A program made the translations under genes and the position numbers. Positions 11,910 to 45,849 of a DNA stretch of 64,000 nt are shown here, piece after piece (the first letter of the stretch is position 1; each line of letters starts with the position of its first letter). The stretch comes from Epsilonproteobacteria bacterium tcs-49. Its GTDB lineage: Bacteria > Campylobacterota > Campylobacteria > Campylobacterales > Sulfurovaceae. Location: positions 1 through 64,000 of the forward strand of contig LLYS01000010.1 in the NCBI GenBank assembly GCA_002049495.1, given 5' to 3'. The notes beneath the pieces were generated by a model that saw nothing but the letters and a program-made list of their open reading frames with translations, was not told the DNA's origin and made no database searches.

Positions 11910-12269
11910 ATGACAGATTACTTAAAAAATATATTGCATAAAAACAACCTGCGCGTCACCAGACAGCGTCTGGAGATTATTGGCGCGCTGCATAAAAAAA
12001 GTACCCCCGCCAGCTATGCCCAGCTCAAAGGGGGCTTGAAGATGGATAAGGCTACCTTTTACAGAAACGTTGAAAAGCTTGAAAGCGCGGGGGTTTTAAC
12101 GCAGATAGAGTTAAGCGACGGCTGGTATTTTGAACTGACGACCCATCAGCACGCCCACTTTCTGTGCAAAAGCTGCGACGATATCAGCTGCCTGCCCCAT
12201 ATGCCCGCACTGGAGGGATTTGAGGTGGAAACGGCGCTGTTTAAAGGGGTTTGTCCCCGCTGCCGCTAA
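11910..12269 (+). CDS. Fur-family metal regulator, probably Zur
   Basis: 119 aa. The winged-helix DNA-binding domain contains LRVTRQRLEIIGAL and the recognition helix region DKATFYRNVEKLE. The C-terminal part has the regulatory metal site in TTHQHAHFLCKSC, and two Cys pairs (CKSC and CPRC) for structural zinc. Divergence from znuA makes zinc-responsive repression of the importer the most likely role. The ATG at 11910 follows AAAAGG; an in-frame TTG at 11892 lies inside the dyad and is less likely. The stop overlaps the convergent gene by four bases. Confidence 0.85.
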   Translation: MTDYLKNILHKNNLRVTRQRLEIIGALHKKSTPASYAQLKGGLKMDKATFYRNVEKLESAGVLTQIELSDGWYFELTTHQHAHFLCKSCDDISCLPHMPALEGFEVETALFKGVCPRCR

Positions 12270-14107
12270 CCGTTTTGTTCCAGCAGTTTGTCAAAGTCGG
12301 CTTTGGCTACGGCTTTACTGTAAAAAAACCCCTGTCCGTACTCGCACTCCATGGAGTTTAAAATCTCGGTGTGCTCCTCCTTCTCGATCCCCTCGGCGAC
12401 GATCTTGTAATCCAGCGATTTGCCCATGCCGATGATCGCTTTGCTGATCATCACGTCCCCTTTGTCTTTGTGCAGATCCATCACAAACTCCCGGTCTATT
12501 TTCAGCACGTCCACGGGCAGCTTTTTGAGATAGGAAAGCGACGAATAGCCCGTGCCGAAATCATCGATTGAGAGCGTTACCCCCAAAGCTTTGAGATCTT
12601 TGAGGATACGGATACTGTTTTGGACGTTGTTCATGGAGATGGTTTCGGTGATCTCCAGCTCTAAACATTTGGGGTCGATTTCATACTTTTCGATGATGTT
12701 TTTCACATCCTCCACCAGCGAACCGTGCTGGAACTGCCGACCCGAGAGGTTGACCGCCACGGCAAGGTTGTGCTTCTCCCACGCTTTGATCTCCTTGGCC
12801 GCAAGTTCAAGCACCTTTTGTCCGATGGGGATAATCATCCCCGTATTTTCGGCAAGGGAGATAAACCTGTCGGGGTACAAAACACCCAACTGCGGGTGTT
12901 CCCAGCGGACCAATCCCTCGGCGCCGATAATCTTGCCCGTTTTGAGATTGACCTTTGGCTGGTAGTAAAGTTGGATCTCATCGTCGGTTTTCAGTGCACG
13001 GCGCAGGTCCTGTTCCAAAGAGAGTTGATCGGAAAGATCGCGGGTCATATTCATCTCATATACTTGATAATTATTGCGCCCCATCTCTTTGGCCCGATAC
13101 ATCGCGGCGTCGGCATATTTGATCACCTCATCTTTGCAACTGCTGTGGTTGGGATAAACCGCGATCCCGATACTCATCGTCGCAAAAAGCGTATGATCGG
13201 CGACGTTAAAGGGTTGTTTCATCACCGTATTGATCTTTTTCGCCACCGTCTCGGCGGCTTCGACCCCCTCAAGATGGGGCAGAACGATTACAAACTCATC
13301 CCCGCCCAGTCGGGAGATGGTATCGCTTTCACGGACGACGCTTTTCAAAACGTTTGCGATCTTTTTGATCAGCTTATCCCCGATATCGTGCCCCAACGAA
13401 TCGTTGATAAATTTGAAGCGGTCCACATCCAGAAACAGTACGCCCACCAGATGTTCGTAGCGCTTGGCCAAAGCGATCGCCTCTTCGAGCCGGTCATGCA
13501 AAAGCCGCCTGTTGGCCAACCCCGTCAAAGAATCGTGAAACGCCAGATATTCGATGGTTTTTTTCGCTTCCATCTGGGAACTGATATCCATCACCGTACC
13601 GATCACTTTAACGCTGCCGCCACTCTTTTTGCGCACTTTGACCCGGGTTTCCACATCGACCATGCTGCGCTTTTGGGAGTAGAGTTTATGGCGCAGGGTA
13701 AACCTCGAGCCCTTTTCCACGGCATCAGAGAGCTCCTGCAATACCATCTTTTTGTCGCGAAAGGCGATAAACTCCAAAAAGTCCTTCCACTCCAGTCCCT
13801 CTTTGGATTTGATACCCAAAATGCGGTACATCTGGGCACTGACGGTGAGTTGGCCGGTGTTCATATCGTATTCGAAACTGCCCACTTTGGCCATCTTTTG
13901 CGATTCTAAAAGGTTGGACTGGGTTTTGGTGAAGTTTTCATTGAGGCGCTTGGTAGTGGCTTGCTGTTTTTTATAACTTTCCAGCAGCTTGTTGATCGTA
14001 TCGACAACTTGAACATATTCGCTATCTTCGTCGTGGTAGCGAAGTTTTTTGGGGTGGGCGAGATTTACCTCCTCAACCTGTTTTGCAAGCAGTTTTAATA
14101 GATCCAT
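12266..14107 (-). CDS. PAS-GGDEF-EAL cyclic-di-GMP signalling protein
   Basis: 613 aa, no clear membrane segment. N-terminal helical region (1-70), PAS domain (about 75-190) with a PAC tail ending VIGTVMDISSQ, GGDEF domain with LGGDEFVIV, and an EAL domain from about 355. The synthase active site is intact. The phosphodiesterase signature reads EGLVRW, with downstream NLSGRQF, ELEITE, IDDFGTGYSSL and AEGIE also present, so both activities are possible. Start set at the ATG 14107 after AGGGGTG; a GTG two codons earlier is an alternative. An extended -10 promoter and a strong 5' hairpin precede it. Confidence 0.92.
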   Translation of the reverse strand: MDLLKLLAKQVEEVNLAHPKKLRYHDEDSEYVQVVDTINKLLESYKKQQATTKRLNENFTKTQSNLLESQKMAKVGSFEYDMNTGQLTVSAQMYRILGIKSKEGLEWKDFLEFIAFRDKKMVLQELSDAVEKGSRFTLRHKLYSQKRSMVDVETRVKVRKKSGGSVKVIGTVMDISSQMEAKKTIEYLAFHDSLTGLANRRLLHDRLEEAIALAKRYEHLVGVLFLDVDRFKFINDSLGHDIGDKLIKKIANVLKSVVRESDTISRLGGDEFVIVLPHLEGVEAAETVAKKINTVMKQPFNVADHTLFATMSIGIAVYPNHSSCKDEVIKYADAAMYRAKEMGRNNYQVYEMNMTRDLSDQLSLEQDLRRALKTDDEIQLYYQPKVNLKTGKIIGAEGLVRWEHPQLGVLYPDRFISLAENTGMIIPIGQKVLELAAKEIKAWEKHNLAVAVNLSGRQFQHGSLVEDVKNIIEKYEIDPKCLELEITETISMNNVQNSIRILKDLKALGVTLSIDDFGTGYSSLSYLKKLPVDVLKIDREFVMDLHKDKGDVMISKAIIGMGKSLDYKIVAEGIEKEEHTEILNSMECEYGQGFFYSKAVAKADFDKLLEQNG

Positions 14108-14132
14108 CCTCACCCCTGTCGATATATTCGCG

Positions 14133-14179: not shown

Positions 14180-14947
14180 TTATGCGAACATCCCTTCGAT
14201 GGGGCTGCTTGCGGTGGCGTAAGGTTTCTTGGGGATTCTGCCCGCTTCAAAGCTCATACGTCCGGCGATGACGGCGTGTTTCATCGCTTCGGCCATCTTG
14301 ATCGGATCCTTCGCTCCGGCGATGGCGGTATTGGTCAAAACCGCGTCGGCTCCAAGCTCCATAGCGATCGCCGCGTCGCTGGCGCAGCCCACGCCCGCAT
14401 CGACGACGACGGGGACGTCCACCGCGTCACGGATAAAGTCTACGTTGTATCTGTTCTGGATACCCAGACCGCTGCCGATGGGTGCGGCCAAAGGCATCAC
14501 CGCGTCCGCTCCGGCCTCTGCGAGGCGCTTGGCGATGATGGGGTCGTCGTTGGTATACGCCATGATGGTAAAGCCGTCTTTTTTGAGTACTTCACACGCT
14601 TTGATCGTATCGATTACATCCGGGTAAAGCGTCTTTTGCGTATCGCCGATCACTTCTAGTTTGATCAGATCGATCCCCGTAGCTTCACGCACGAGGCGAA
14701 AAAGCGTGATCGCTTCCTCGGCGGTGGTGCACCCCGCGCTGTTTGGCAGCATCTGAACGTTGCTGTCTTTAAAATAATCCATCAGGTTTTCCTCGTTGGG
14801 GTCGGTGATGTTGACGCGTTTGACCGCTACGGTGATCATCTCCGCGCCGCTGGCGATGGTCGCGTCGTACGTGGTTTGAAAGTCGGGGTACTTCCCGCTG
14901 CCGACGATGAGGCGGCTGTTAAAATTGTATTTTCCTATTGTTAACAT
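14180..14947 (-). CDS. thiG: Thiazole synthase ThiG
   Basis: 255 aa TIM-barrel enzyme that builds the thiazole phosphate of thiamine from deoxyxylulose phosphate, a glycine-derived imine and ThiS thiocarboxylate. Visible features: [15 protein letters not shown] at the start, Schiff-base Lys in TVAVKRVN near 43, [10 protein letters not shown] near 155 and [31 protein letters not shown] at the phosphate end. AGGAGAAG precedes the ATG. No other thi gene is adjacent and no TPP riboswitch is apparent upstream. Confidence 0.96.
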
Positions 14948-15078: not shown

Positions 15079-17046
15079 ATGAATTTTATCCCCGGTTACA
15101 ACTTTTTAAAAAACCTCAAGCTCGGCACCATGTTCGCTATCGTCATCAGCGGCGCCATGATCATCATCACCACCGCCCTTTACTGGCTCACCTACGAGAA
15201 AACCAAAACGGCGCTGGAACACAACCTCAAATCCAAGGCCAGCTCCATTTTGGATTTTGCCGACGTACTGCTTGAAAGCCGGAATGAAAAATTTTTCAGC
15301 AACCAAAGCCACGAAGTTCCCCAGGTGATCCAGGGGGAGGTTTTTGAAAAATTTACCAAGATTTCGGACGGAAAGGTACTGTTTAACCAATCCTCCAAAC
15401 ACCCTATGAACCCCAAACACAAAGCCAAGCCCTTTGAAGAGGATATCATCGAGTTTTTCAAGCAGAACAAAAACACCAAACAGGAAAGCCGCTTCATCAA
15501 TGCCGGAGGCAACGAGTACTTCGTGCTCTCACGCCCCATGATCGCCGAGGAGCGCTGTAAAATGTGCCACCCCACGTGGACCCCCGGGGACGTCATCGCC
15601 GCCGAGCACGTCAAGATCAATACCCAGCAGTTCAACGCCGACCTGGAAGAAAACCTCTATCTGCTCATCGGACAGTGGCTGCTCAACATCGCCCTGATCA
15701 TCGCAATCGTCCAGGTGCTGTTTAAACTTTTGATTTCGGACCGGGTCAACAAACTGCTGAAGATGATGTTTCAGCTTGAAAACGGCAACTTTATCCTCGA
15801 TAAGTACCTGGAGGGAGAAAACCCCAAGCTGGAATCTTCCAAAAATGAACTTGACCGCCTCTTTTTGCATTTGGCAAGGGTAGCCAACAATCTCAAGCCC
15901 GTCATCAACAAGGTGGTCAAACAATCCAAAGACGTGGCTTTTCGAAGCTCGGTTGCTTTCGTCAGCGCCAAGGAGACCAAAGATATCGTCGAAGATCAGG
16001 CCCAGTCGATCAACAACGCCAACGCCACCATAGACAGGATCATGGAGCTCAACAACGACCTCACCGGACGGATGCAGGATCTGCAGACCAAATCCAACCA
16101 CTCCATGAGCAAAGTCAACGAAGGCCAGCATACCCTCGAGGAAAACCGGGAATCGGCCAACCAGGCAAACGTGGCGATGGATGAGACGGTAACGACGATA
16201 CGGACCTTTGAAGAGTTTTCCGAAGAGATCGAAAAGACCGTCGAAACGATCACCGACATCGCCGACGAGACCAACCTTATCGCCCTCAATGCCGCCATCG
16301 AAGCGGCCCGCGCAGGAGAGCACGGCAGAAGTTTCGCCGTGGTTGCGGACAAGATCCGGGTACTGGCGGACGTATCGCTGAAAAACGCCGACGATATCAA
16401 AACGGTGGTCAACTCCATGAAAAGCAATATCGACAACATGATCGGCAACGCCAACAAAACCAAAGAGGTGATCGGCATCCTGGAAGAGAGCAGCCACAAG
16501 CTCAGCGGCAACTTCAGCGATATCAACACCGCGCTGGATGAAACCACGCAAAGCCTCTCCGAGTTTGAAAGCGAGTTTAAAGGTGAAACCAAGCAGCTTG
16601 AGGGGATTATCAGCAGCTTGAACGAAGTCACCGACAAGAGTGAAAACGTCGCCAGCACCACCAAGCAGATGCAATCGATCATGGGCGAAATCACCGACGA
16701 CAGCGCCGAATTGAAACTGCTCAGCGACGGCTTTGAAGTGGTACTGCAAAACAATCGACAGACCCAAAGGGCGGTCATCTCGCCCCCGCAACCCGCCACC
16801 ATCAGCTTTGACAGCGGGCCGACTTTTGAGGGAGCGTACGTCTTTGACGCTTCCAACGACGGCATCTCCTTTTTCATTAAGGACTCGCACAAAGCGGGAC
16901 ACAATAAATCGATGATGGATGAAACGGCGACGCTCCAGATCAAAGGAGGAACCGTCAACGGCAGTTCCAGGTTGCGCGTTCGCATCGTATACTGCAATAT
17001 GCAAAAATTGAAAAACACCGCCTTTTGCGGTTGTAAACTGCTATAA
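15079..17046 (+). CDS. Chemoreceptor with Tll0287-like heme-type sensor and C-terminal PilZ domain
   Basis: 655 aa from the ATG at 15079 (GGAGATTT upstream). Two membrane helices (about 15-38 and 193-215) bracket a periplasmic DUF3365/Tll0287-like sensor with a c-type heme motif CKMCH near 160-164. The cytoplasmic hairpin tip reads [21 protein letters not shown] (truncating at the core) followed by a divergent SFAVVADKIRVLAD. The tail from about 560 carries RQTQR and, thirty residues on, DASNDG, matching the RxxxR and D/NxSxxG cyclic-di-GMP motifs of PilZ domains. Likely role: coupling redox or gas sensing and cyclic-di-GMP to CheA. No HAMP signature is obvious. Confidence 0.85.
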   Translation: MNFIPGYNFLKNLKLGTMFAIVISGAMIIITTALYWLTYEKTKTALEHNLKSKASSILDFADVLLESRNEKFFSNQSHEVPQVIQGEVFEKFTKISDGKVLFNQSSKHPMNPKHKAKPFEEDIIEFFKQNKNTKQESRFINAGGNEYFVLSRPMIAEERCKMCHPTWTPGDVIAAEHVKINTQQFNADLEENLYLLIGQWLLNIALIIAIVQVLFKLLISDRVNKLLKMMFQLENGNFILDKYLEGENPKLESSKNELDRLFLHLARVANNLKPVINKVVKQSKDVAFRSSVAFVSAKETKDIVEDQAQSINNANATIDRIMELNNDLTGRMQDLQTKSNHSMSKVNEGQHTLEENRESANQANVAMDETVTTIRTFEEFSEEIEKTVETITDIADETNLIALNAAIEAARAGEHGRSFAVVADKIRVLADVSLKNADDIKTVVNSMKSNIDNMIGNANKTKEVIGILEESSHKLSGNFSDINTALDETTQSLSEFESEFKGETKQLEGIISSLNEVTDKSENVASTTKQMQSIMGEITDDSAELKLLSDGFEVVLQNNRQTQRAVISPPQPATISFDSGPTFEGAYVFDASNDGISFFIKDSHKAGHNKSMMDETATLQIKGGTVNGSSRLRVRIVYCNMQKLKNTAFCGCKLL

Positions 17047-17075: not shown

Positions 17076-17552
17076 ATGAAAAAGACCATTTTGACAGCTG
17101 TCCTCGCCGCTTTTATCCTGGGCGGATGTGACGGAAAAGAGCAAACGGCGCAGACGAAAACGGCGCAGGAAAACAAAGGGGAAGAGGCAACAAAGCAAAG
17201 CACACCGCAGCAAAAGCAGCAAAAACCCGAAGCCACAACCCAAACGCCGGAGCAACCGCCCGCTCCGAAAACACAGCCGGCCCAAACGGCAGCTGCCGAA
17301 AAAACCGGGAAAGACCTCTATATGGCCTGCATCCCCTGCCACGGCGTCAATGCGGAAAAACACGCCTTTAACGCTTCAGACATCATCGCCAACTGGGATG
17401 CCAAACGGATAGAGGAGGCGCTGATGGGATACAAAAAAGGGATCTACGGCGGTGCCATGAAAAGTACCATGACCGGACAGGTCGCCAACCTTTCAAAGGA
17501 AGATATGAAAAAACTGGCGGAGTATATCAGCGGGCTGAACCCTAAGGGGTAA
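17076..17552 (+). CDS. Lipoprotein c-type cytochrome, monoheme
   Basis: 158 aa. A short signal peptide ends in the lipobox LGGC. Then comes a low-complexity Gln/Thr/Pro/Lys-rich linker of about 60 residues and a class I cytochrome c domain with CIPCH near residue 83 and a distal Met-rich stretch [10 protein letters not shown]. The domain ends LAEYISGL, as in small periplasmic cytochromes. It is likely tethered to a membrane as an electron shuttle. Start chosen at 17076 after AAGGAG. It follows the heme-sensor chemoreceptor by 29 bases and converges with mnmG, overlapping it by 11 bases. Confidence 0.85.
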
Positions 17553-45291: not shown

Positions 45292-45849
45292 ATGAAAAAG
45301 ATTGTCTCAACTGCCCTGCTGGCAACGTCGATTCTCTTTGCAGCGGACGCCGCGGTGGTACAAAAAGCGAAACAGAGTATGATGGAGCTTGGGAAAACCC
45401 TTAAAGGCGAACTCAAGCAAAAATTCAAAGAGGACCCCAGCGGTTTAAAAGCGGTGGAGTACTGTGCCAATCAGGCGCAGAAATTGACAAAGGAGGTCAA
45501 TGCCCGTCTTGATTCGGACGTGAAGGTGCGCAGAACGGCACTGAAATACCGAAGCGAGCACAATGAACCCTCCATTCAGGATATAAACGTGATGGATGAT
45601 TTCCAGCACCGCATCGAAAATCTGAACCAAAGCCCTAAAAAGATGATGAAGGTAGTTGAAACAAAAGAGAAATACTTCGTTTACAAAGCTCTGGGTGTCG
45701 GCAAGCCCTGCTTGAAATGCCACGGGGACGTTAACAAGATCGATAGCAGGATTTTAAACGTTCTCAATGAAAACTACCCCTATGACCGAGCCAGAAACTT
45801 CAAACTCGGCGAGTTCCGCGGTGCTATCGTAGCGGAGATCGAAAAGTAG
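45292..45849 (+). CDS. Periplasmic Tll0287-like (DUF3365) c-type heme protein
   Basis: 185 aa. A cleavable signal peptide ends near residue 20 (AADA). The mature domain matches the DUF3365 fold also found as the sensor of the chemoreceptor at 15-17 kb. Heme-binding CLKCH lies near residue 142. It was probably exported to bind a c-type heme with an open site for a redox or gas ligand. AAAGGAGTGGGT precedes the ATG. It is divergent from the PAS-GGDEF gene; the 157-base gap holds AT-rich promoter DNA. Confidence 0.85.
   Translation: MKKIVSTALLATSILFAADAAVVQKAKQSMMELGKTLKGELKQKFKEDPSGLKAVEYCANQAQKLTKEVNARLDSDVKVRRTALKYRSEHNEPSIQDINVMDDFQHRIENLNQSPKKMMKVVETKEKYFVYKALGVGKPCLKCHGDVNKIDSRILNVLNENYPYDRARNFKLGEFRGAIVAEIEK

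Follow-up and report, generated by a model that had tools for sequence, protein, structure and literature searches.

A chemoreceptor of Epsilonproteobacteria bacterium tcs-49, encoded within the 64,000-nucleotide stretch of DNA that was analysed (hereafter the window), combines a heme-type Cache sensor, an MCP hairpin and a C-terminal PilZ domain in one protein, and as judged from aligned sequences this architecture is a conserved Campylobacterota family that spans several genera. We consider it rather likely that the receptor has two inputs, a NO or redox signal at the heme-Cache sensor and c-di-GMP read by the PilZ domain, which together set the output of one MCP. The limits assigned to the gene in the initial annotation are exact and the open reading frame is real: an aaggag ribosome-binding site lies immediately 5' of the ATG, and the last base of the stop codon is the last base of the frame (Table 1). 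The MCP hairpin described there was recovered with Pfam (PF00015, E 1.3e-30, 106.9 bits against a cut-off of 34.6), and the PilZ domain lies C-terminal to it in what is a membrane MCP, with the transmembrane (TM) helices judged from the sequence. The HAMP-like segment after TM2 is degenerate; even the HAMP match in a relative (L002) is weak and under the cut-off (E 0.03).

Table 1. Features of the receptor gene and its immediate neighbours, in window coordinates.
Feature	Position	Strand	Basis or remark
Chemoreceptor gene, 655 aa	15079..17046	+	TM, heme-Cache (Tll0287-like), TM, degenerate HAMP-like, MCP hairpin, PilZ
Periplasmic sensor region, predicted Tll0287-like/sCache_heme fold, residues 45-218 including part of TM2	15211..15732	+	PF11845, AF2
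CKMCH, putative heme c attachment motif, residues 160-164	15556..15570	+	CxxCHP conservation among relatives
HAMP-like linker after TM2, limits approximate	15733..15900	+	family-conserved N-E-[LI]-D
MCP signalling domain, residues 354-516	16138..16626	+	PF00015; solved MCPs matched
Signalling tip, 42 residues, family-specific substitutions	16252..16377	+	compared with 44 family members and 18 same-genome receptors
C-terminal PilZ domain with short lead-in from last MCP helix, 114 residues	16702..17043	+	40-sequence alignment, Pfam, AF2, Foldseek
RxxxR c-di-GMP motif, RQTQR	16756..16770	+	conserved 40/40
[D/N]xSxxG c-di-GMP motif, DASNDG	16846..16863	+	conserved 37/40
Single-CxxCH lipoprotein-like cytochrome c	17076..17552	+	PF00034, E 6.4e-9; 29 bp past receptor
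thiG, divergent upstream neighbour	14180..14947	-	also adjoins PilZ-less L031 and L094

The Pfam PilZ model (PF07238) gave no match on the receptor protein itself, and we therefore built the family to test the domain. A single-protein search of the genome contigs returned no relatives; an alignment search then succeeded, and after removal of near-duplicates the family comprised 45 full or nearly full sequences, 40 of them with the C-terminal domain. Within these 40 the first c-di-GMP motif is without exception, while the three exceptions to the second are DKCDKG in L101, DRNAKG in L093 and DANDRG in L050. The two motif arginines, the aspartate and the glycine are 100% conserved and the serine 93%, so that the five positions average 98.5% against a domain mean of 44%, whereas the intervening x positions are free to vary (20-38%). 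When 200,000 sets of five columns were drawn at random, not one matched the conservation of the motif, a result that measures constraint rather than probability since the rows are related. Pfam PilZ does match 21 of the 40 members at E <= 0.1, the best at 1.9e-6. Searched against the PDB, a sequence profile of the domain gave no relatives among solved structures. The structure prediction that had been proposed as a check yielded a PilZ beta-barrel: the AF2 model has a pLDDT of 82.7, with values that exceed 90 over most of the barrel and are poor in the first 17 residues, and its best 22 PDB matches by Foldseek are all PilZ structures, headed by BcsA with c-di-GMP (4p00, E 9.2e-5, TMq 0.66) and including VCA0042, MotI, Alg44 and MrkH. 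Family conservation and predicted fold together establish that the C-terminal domain is a PilZ domain with both of the motifs first read from it, and with motifs and fold intact it is likely to bind c-di-GMP.

Some PilZ domains are known to function without c-di-GMP, and the domain here could instead serve a structural or docking role, in partner binding or receptor localisation. The weak Pfam scores and the three members that lack the serine of the second motif would fit such a role. The residues expected to contact c-di-GMP are, however, among the most conserved of the domain, and degenerate PilZ domains lose RxxxR, so we regard a purely structural PilZ domain as very unlikely and prefer one that reads c-di-GMP.

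At the other end of the protein, the CxxCH-bearing Tll0287-like sensor proposed at the outset is borne out by the Pfam match at residues 46-166 (E 1.1e-12, 49.1 bits against a cut-off of 24.1) and by the presence of CxxCHP in all 45 family sequences. Here too a profile search of the PDB gave no relative of the sensor, but comparison of folds did: the best match of the AF2 model (pLDDT 91.6) is Tll0287 itself (5b82, E 1.7e-4, TM 0.48-0.52), and GSU0935 (3b42) ranks third. Given CxxCHP and the fold, the sensor very probably carries a covalent heme c. In a 2026 preprint, Deshpande et al. classed this domain as sCache_heme, and two purified examples gave c-type heme spectra (PMC12889525). One of their examples, with two TM helices and a HAMP domain and no axial Cys, bound NO tightly, released it slowly and formed no stable O2 complex, while a stand-alone example with a Cys ligand appears to be redox-related (PMC12889525). 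Each of the 45 family sensors has just two Cys, both within CxxCH; the axial Cys, which marks the stand-alone redox subclass rather than the whole sCache_heme family, is absent, and by this criterion of PMC12889525 the sequence of the receptor sensor is of the signalling type. The window itself encodes both forms, the receptor form without the extra Cys and a stand-alone, secreted Tll0287-like heme protein of 185 aa (45292-45849, + strand) with CLKCH and a further Cys (AVEYCANQA) that is a candidate axial ligand.

Because the receptor lacks the axial Cys and the signalling-type domain bound NO without a stable O2 complex (PMC12889525), the input of "redox or gas" given in the initial annotation can be narrowed towards NO. 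Redox is kept as the main rival, since the work on GSU0582 and GSU0935 favours a redox-linked ligand switch, with a change of spin state, even as CO and NO binding were also reported (PMC8396549). According to such a scheme the sensor would read redox potential and not NO; oxidation or reduction of the heme would swap the sixth ligand and drive the output, and the PilZ domain would still set the gain. The rank of GSU0935 among the solved matches of the sensor model agrees with this, as does the genome, which has a heme-copper oxidase (COX1) and in which a search for the cd1 type of nitrite reductase (NirS) alone found none, which leaves no obvious endogenous source of NO. On the other hand, the family sensor offers no invariant Met or Cys as a distal ligand, and in the single study that compared such domains biochemically the signalling type acted as a NO sensor (PMC12889525). 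We thus hold redox sensing to be possible but the less probable choice, and continue with NO as the preferred signal.

The signalling tip had been called divergent, and it does differ from those of all 18 other readable receptors of the same genome: the receptor has ETNLI...DKIRVLADVS where the others have QTNLL (once QTGLL) followed by an E[VI]R[KQ]LA-type segment. The comparison covers these 18 among the 24 MCPsignal matches of the genome, 23 of them above the cut-off, with five further MCP matches outside it. The charge-swapped tip, ETNLI(A/S)...(D/E)K(I/V)R, is found in 38 of the 44 family members with a readable tip, and the Q-to-E, E-to-K and K-to-E changes (V in place of the last E in the tcs-49 receptor) occur together, in PilZ-less members too; the other six (L050, L068, L073, L082, L093 and L101) have the ordinary QTNLLALN...DEVR(K/Q)LAEKS. 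Such a tip might mean that the receptor feeds a distinct chemosensory array, one that has a CheA and CheW to itself, with an output perhaps other than flagellar taxis, and in addition to the tip itself the four CheR and four CheB matches in the genome make more than one chemosensory system likely. However, the changes (Q to E, and DEVRK to DKIRV) fall in the flanks while the 14-residue core segment that contacts CheA and CheW is unchanged, and the genes seen around the receptor are not che genes, so that we think a separate array unlikely, more so than redox sensing. We also considered whether the receptor lacks methylation sites, and set this aside: the receptor has no E. coli-type consensus, but neither do other MCPs in the order, which makes its absence uninformative. 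Elsewhere in the same genome, at G000:C1:253000-262100 (L032 and beyond), a second receptor with a CxxCH sensor lies near genes for an EAL-type protein, a response regulator, a histidine kinase-like ORF, cheB and cheR, which is possibly a dedicated chemosensory cluster.

From the domains, motif conservation, predicted folds, distribution and tip observed, we infer how the preferred two-input receptor might work; heme attachment, the ligand, c-di-GMP binding, the sign of the output and the partner kinase are all presumed in it. The periplasmic Cache domain with its covalent heme c would detect NO or the redox state of the heme, and the change would pass through TM2 and the degenerate HAMP to the hairpin with its CheA/CheW-binding tip. 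The PilZ domain is joined to the last MCP helix by a short, near-invariant linker, LKxLxDGFEVVxNNRxxxR, which places RxxxR a few residues past that helix. PilZ domains already characterised hold c-di-GMP with an RxxxR that sits in the lead-in segment, and binding should therefore fix the lead-in against the barrel at the membrane-proximal end of the hairpin, a suggestion that comes from the geometry of the linker. The c-di-GMP-bound PilZ domain could then tighten or loosen this end of the hairpin, and c-di-GMP would adjust the gain of the heme response, or its baseline, as reported for Tlp1. In this way a gas or redox signal from outside and the swim-or-settle signal of the cell itself could be balanced in one receptor.

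The genome (2.22 Mb) has 62 GGDEF matches. Pfam PilZ finds nothing in it at E <= 0.001, and with the family PilZ profile the receptor is the only match at E <= 10; since Pfam misses even the PilZ domain of the receptor, this should be read as the only PilZ domain detected, and the genome probably encodes other types of c-di-GMP effector. We suggest, tentatively and with less conviction than the two-input receptor itself, that NO or redox and c-di-GMP converge on a maintained MCP family that docks its own CheA and CheW via the charge-swapped tip and forms the chief, or even the sole, PilZ link between behaviour and this network of about 60 GGDEF domains. A PAS-GGDEF-EAL protein, a possible local c-di-GMP enzyme, is encoded two genes from the receptor (12266-14113, - strand).

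The family is not confined to the close kin of tcs-49. Full-length relatives at 41-43% identity occur in three genomes from other families of the order, and at 38-44% across other Campylobacterota; a named carrier is Sulfurimonas indica NW8N (ortholog L089). At E <= 0.01 a profile of the C-termini of the relatives in those three genomes had matches in 28 of the 399 genomes of the order, spread over 12 of 87 genera. Three of the 28 matches are weak (E > 0.001), among them a cellulose-synthase-type protein (L060) and one that resembles a Mur ligase (L059), and setting the three aside reduces the count to 25 genomes from 10 genera, with heme-less members in one genus (g48). When one genome per species was searched with the alignment (84,980 species), 42 loci were obtained, 41 from Campylobacterota or unnamed bacteria and one, a Lysinibacillus locus (L103), that was rejected as a chance MCP match.

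Two kinds of variant occur within the family. Five relatives without PilZ (L031 of G057, L090-L092 and L094) form one clade and retain both heme sensor and divergent tip, so the PilZ domain is not essential to every such receptor; G057 and assembly JADGDK each hold one copy with PilZ and one without. In the tree the PilZ-less clade nests inside the family, and the grouping of all PilZ-less rows with the outgroup was not rejected (p-AU 0.385); the tree therefore fits either loss of PilZ in this clade or its gain elsewhere. Conversely, members from genus g48 of family f6 (L055-L058) keep MCP and PilZ with a short sensor from which CxxCH and a portion of the Cache domain are missing. By their sequences they apparently lost the heme and left the PilZ receptor intact, for which one change on the tree suffices. 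Apart from these heme-less members, the remaining PilZ proteins of the order that we inspected are not MCPs.

PilZ-ended receptors and heme-Cache receptors are each known already. Tlp1, with which the receptor had aptly been compared, and Aer of Azospirillum brasilense are likewise membrane chemoreceptors with PilZ after the MCP domain; according to work cited in PMC6406031 and PMC6454048, the sensitivity of Tlp1 is set by c-di-GMP binding to its PilZ domain, and PilZ is required for Aer function in aerotaxis (PMC6406031). Unlike the present receptor, neither has been described with a c-type heme Cache domain, as the periplasmic domain of Tlp1 has no known ligand and Aer carries a PAS domain that probably holds FAD. 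Cbp1 of Azorhizobium caulinodans, also an MCP with a C-terminal PilZ domain carrying RxxxR and D/NxSxxG, differs in being soluble, without TM segment or heme sensor; it binds c-di-GMP through RxxxR with a Kd of about 15 uM, and Tlp1 with about 7 uM (PMC6454048). GSU0582 and GSU0935 of Geobacter sulfurreducens and other sCache_heme (DUF3365/Tll0287) receptors share the periplasmic Cache domain with CxxCH fused to an MCP, but PilZ is not mentioned in PMC12889525 or PMC8396549. DcrA of Desulfovibrio vulgaris, a c-type heme chemoreceptor for oxygen or redox according to a title cited in PMC13401364, is alike by description. We found no report of the heme-Cache and PilZ combination, or of PilZ receptors in Campylobacterota, in the titles and abstracts of the incomplete literature searched. 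The combination had been thought uncommon, which holds as far as published reports go, but it is no one-off, since it recurs as a conserved Campylobacterota family.

Most of what is known of how a single receptor weighs the c-di-GMP level against an outside signal comes from Azospirillum. The present family offers a spectroscopically visible input, the heme, and a second input that looks competent to bind, the PilZ domain, in one protein, with the PilZ-less and heme-less relatives as natural controls, and the two inputs could be tested separately in the named carrier strain.

We sought a conserved operon around the relatives and did not find one. The locus is partly conserved, since thiG or purN-nnr recurs beside some members, purN-nnr adjoining several relatives both with and without PilZ. 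The cytochrome c gene downstream, possibly co-transcribed with the receptor, was not found beside the relatives and lies outside the conserved unit. Finally, we observed another family in Campylobacterota, distinct from the receptors, whose proteins have about 630-650 aa and a PilZ-like C-terminal domain (L104-L110, from G111, G039, G102, G145, G074, G037 and G121), in which LLNIYKGL[PC][IV][ST]T is conserved and the middle part may be a degenerate GGDEF domain.
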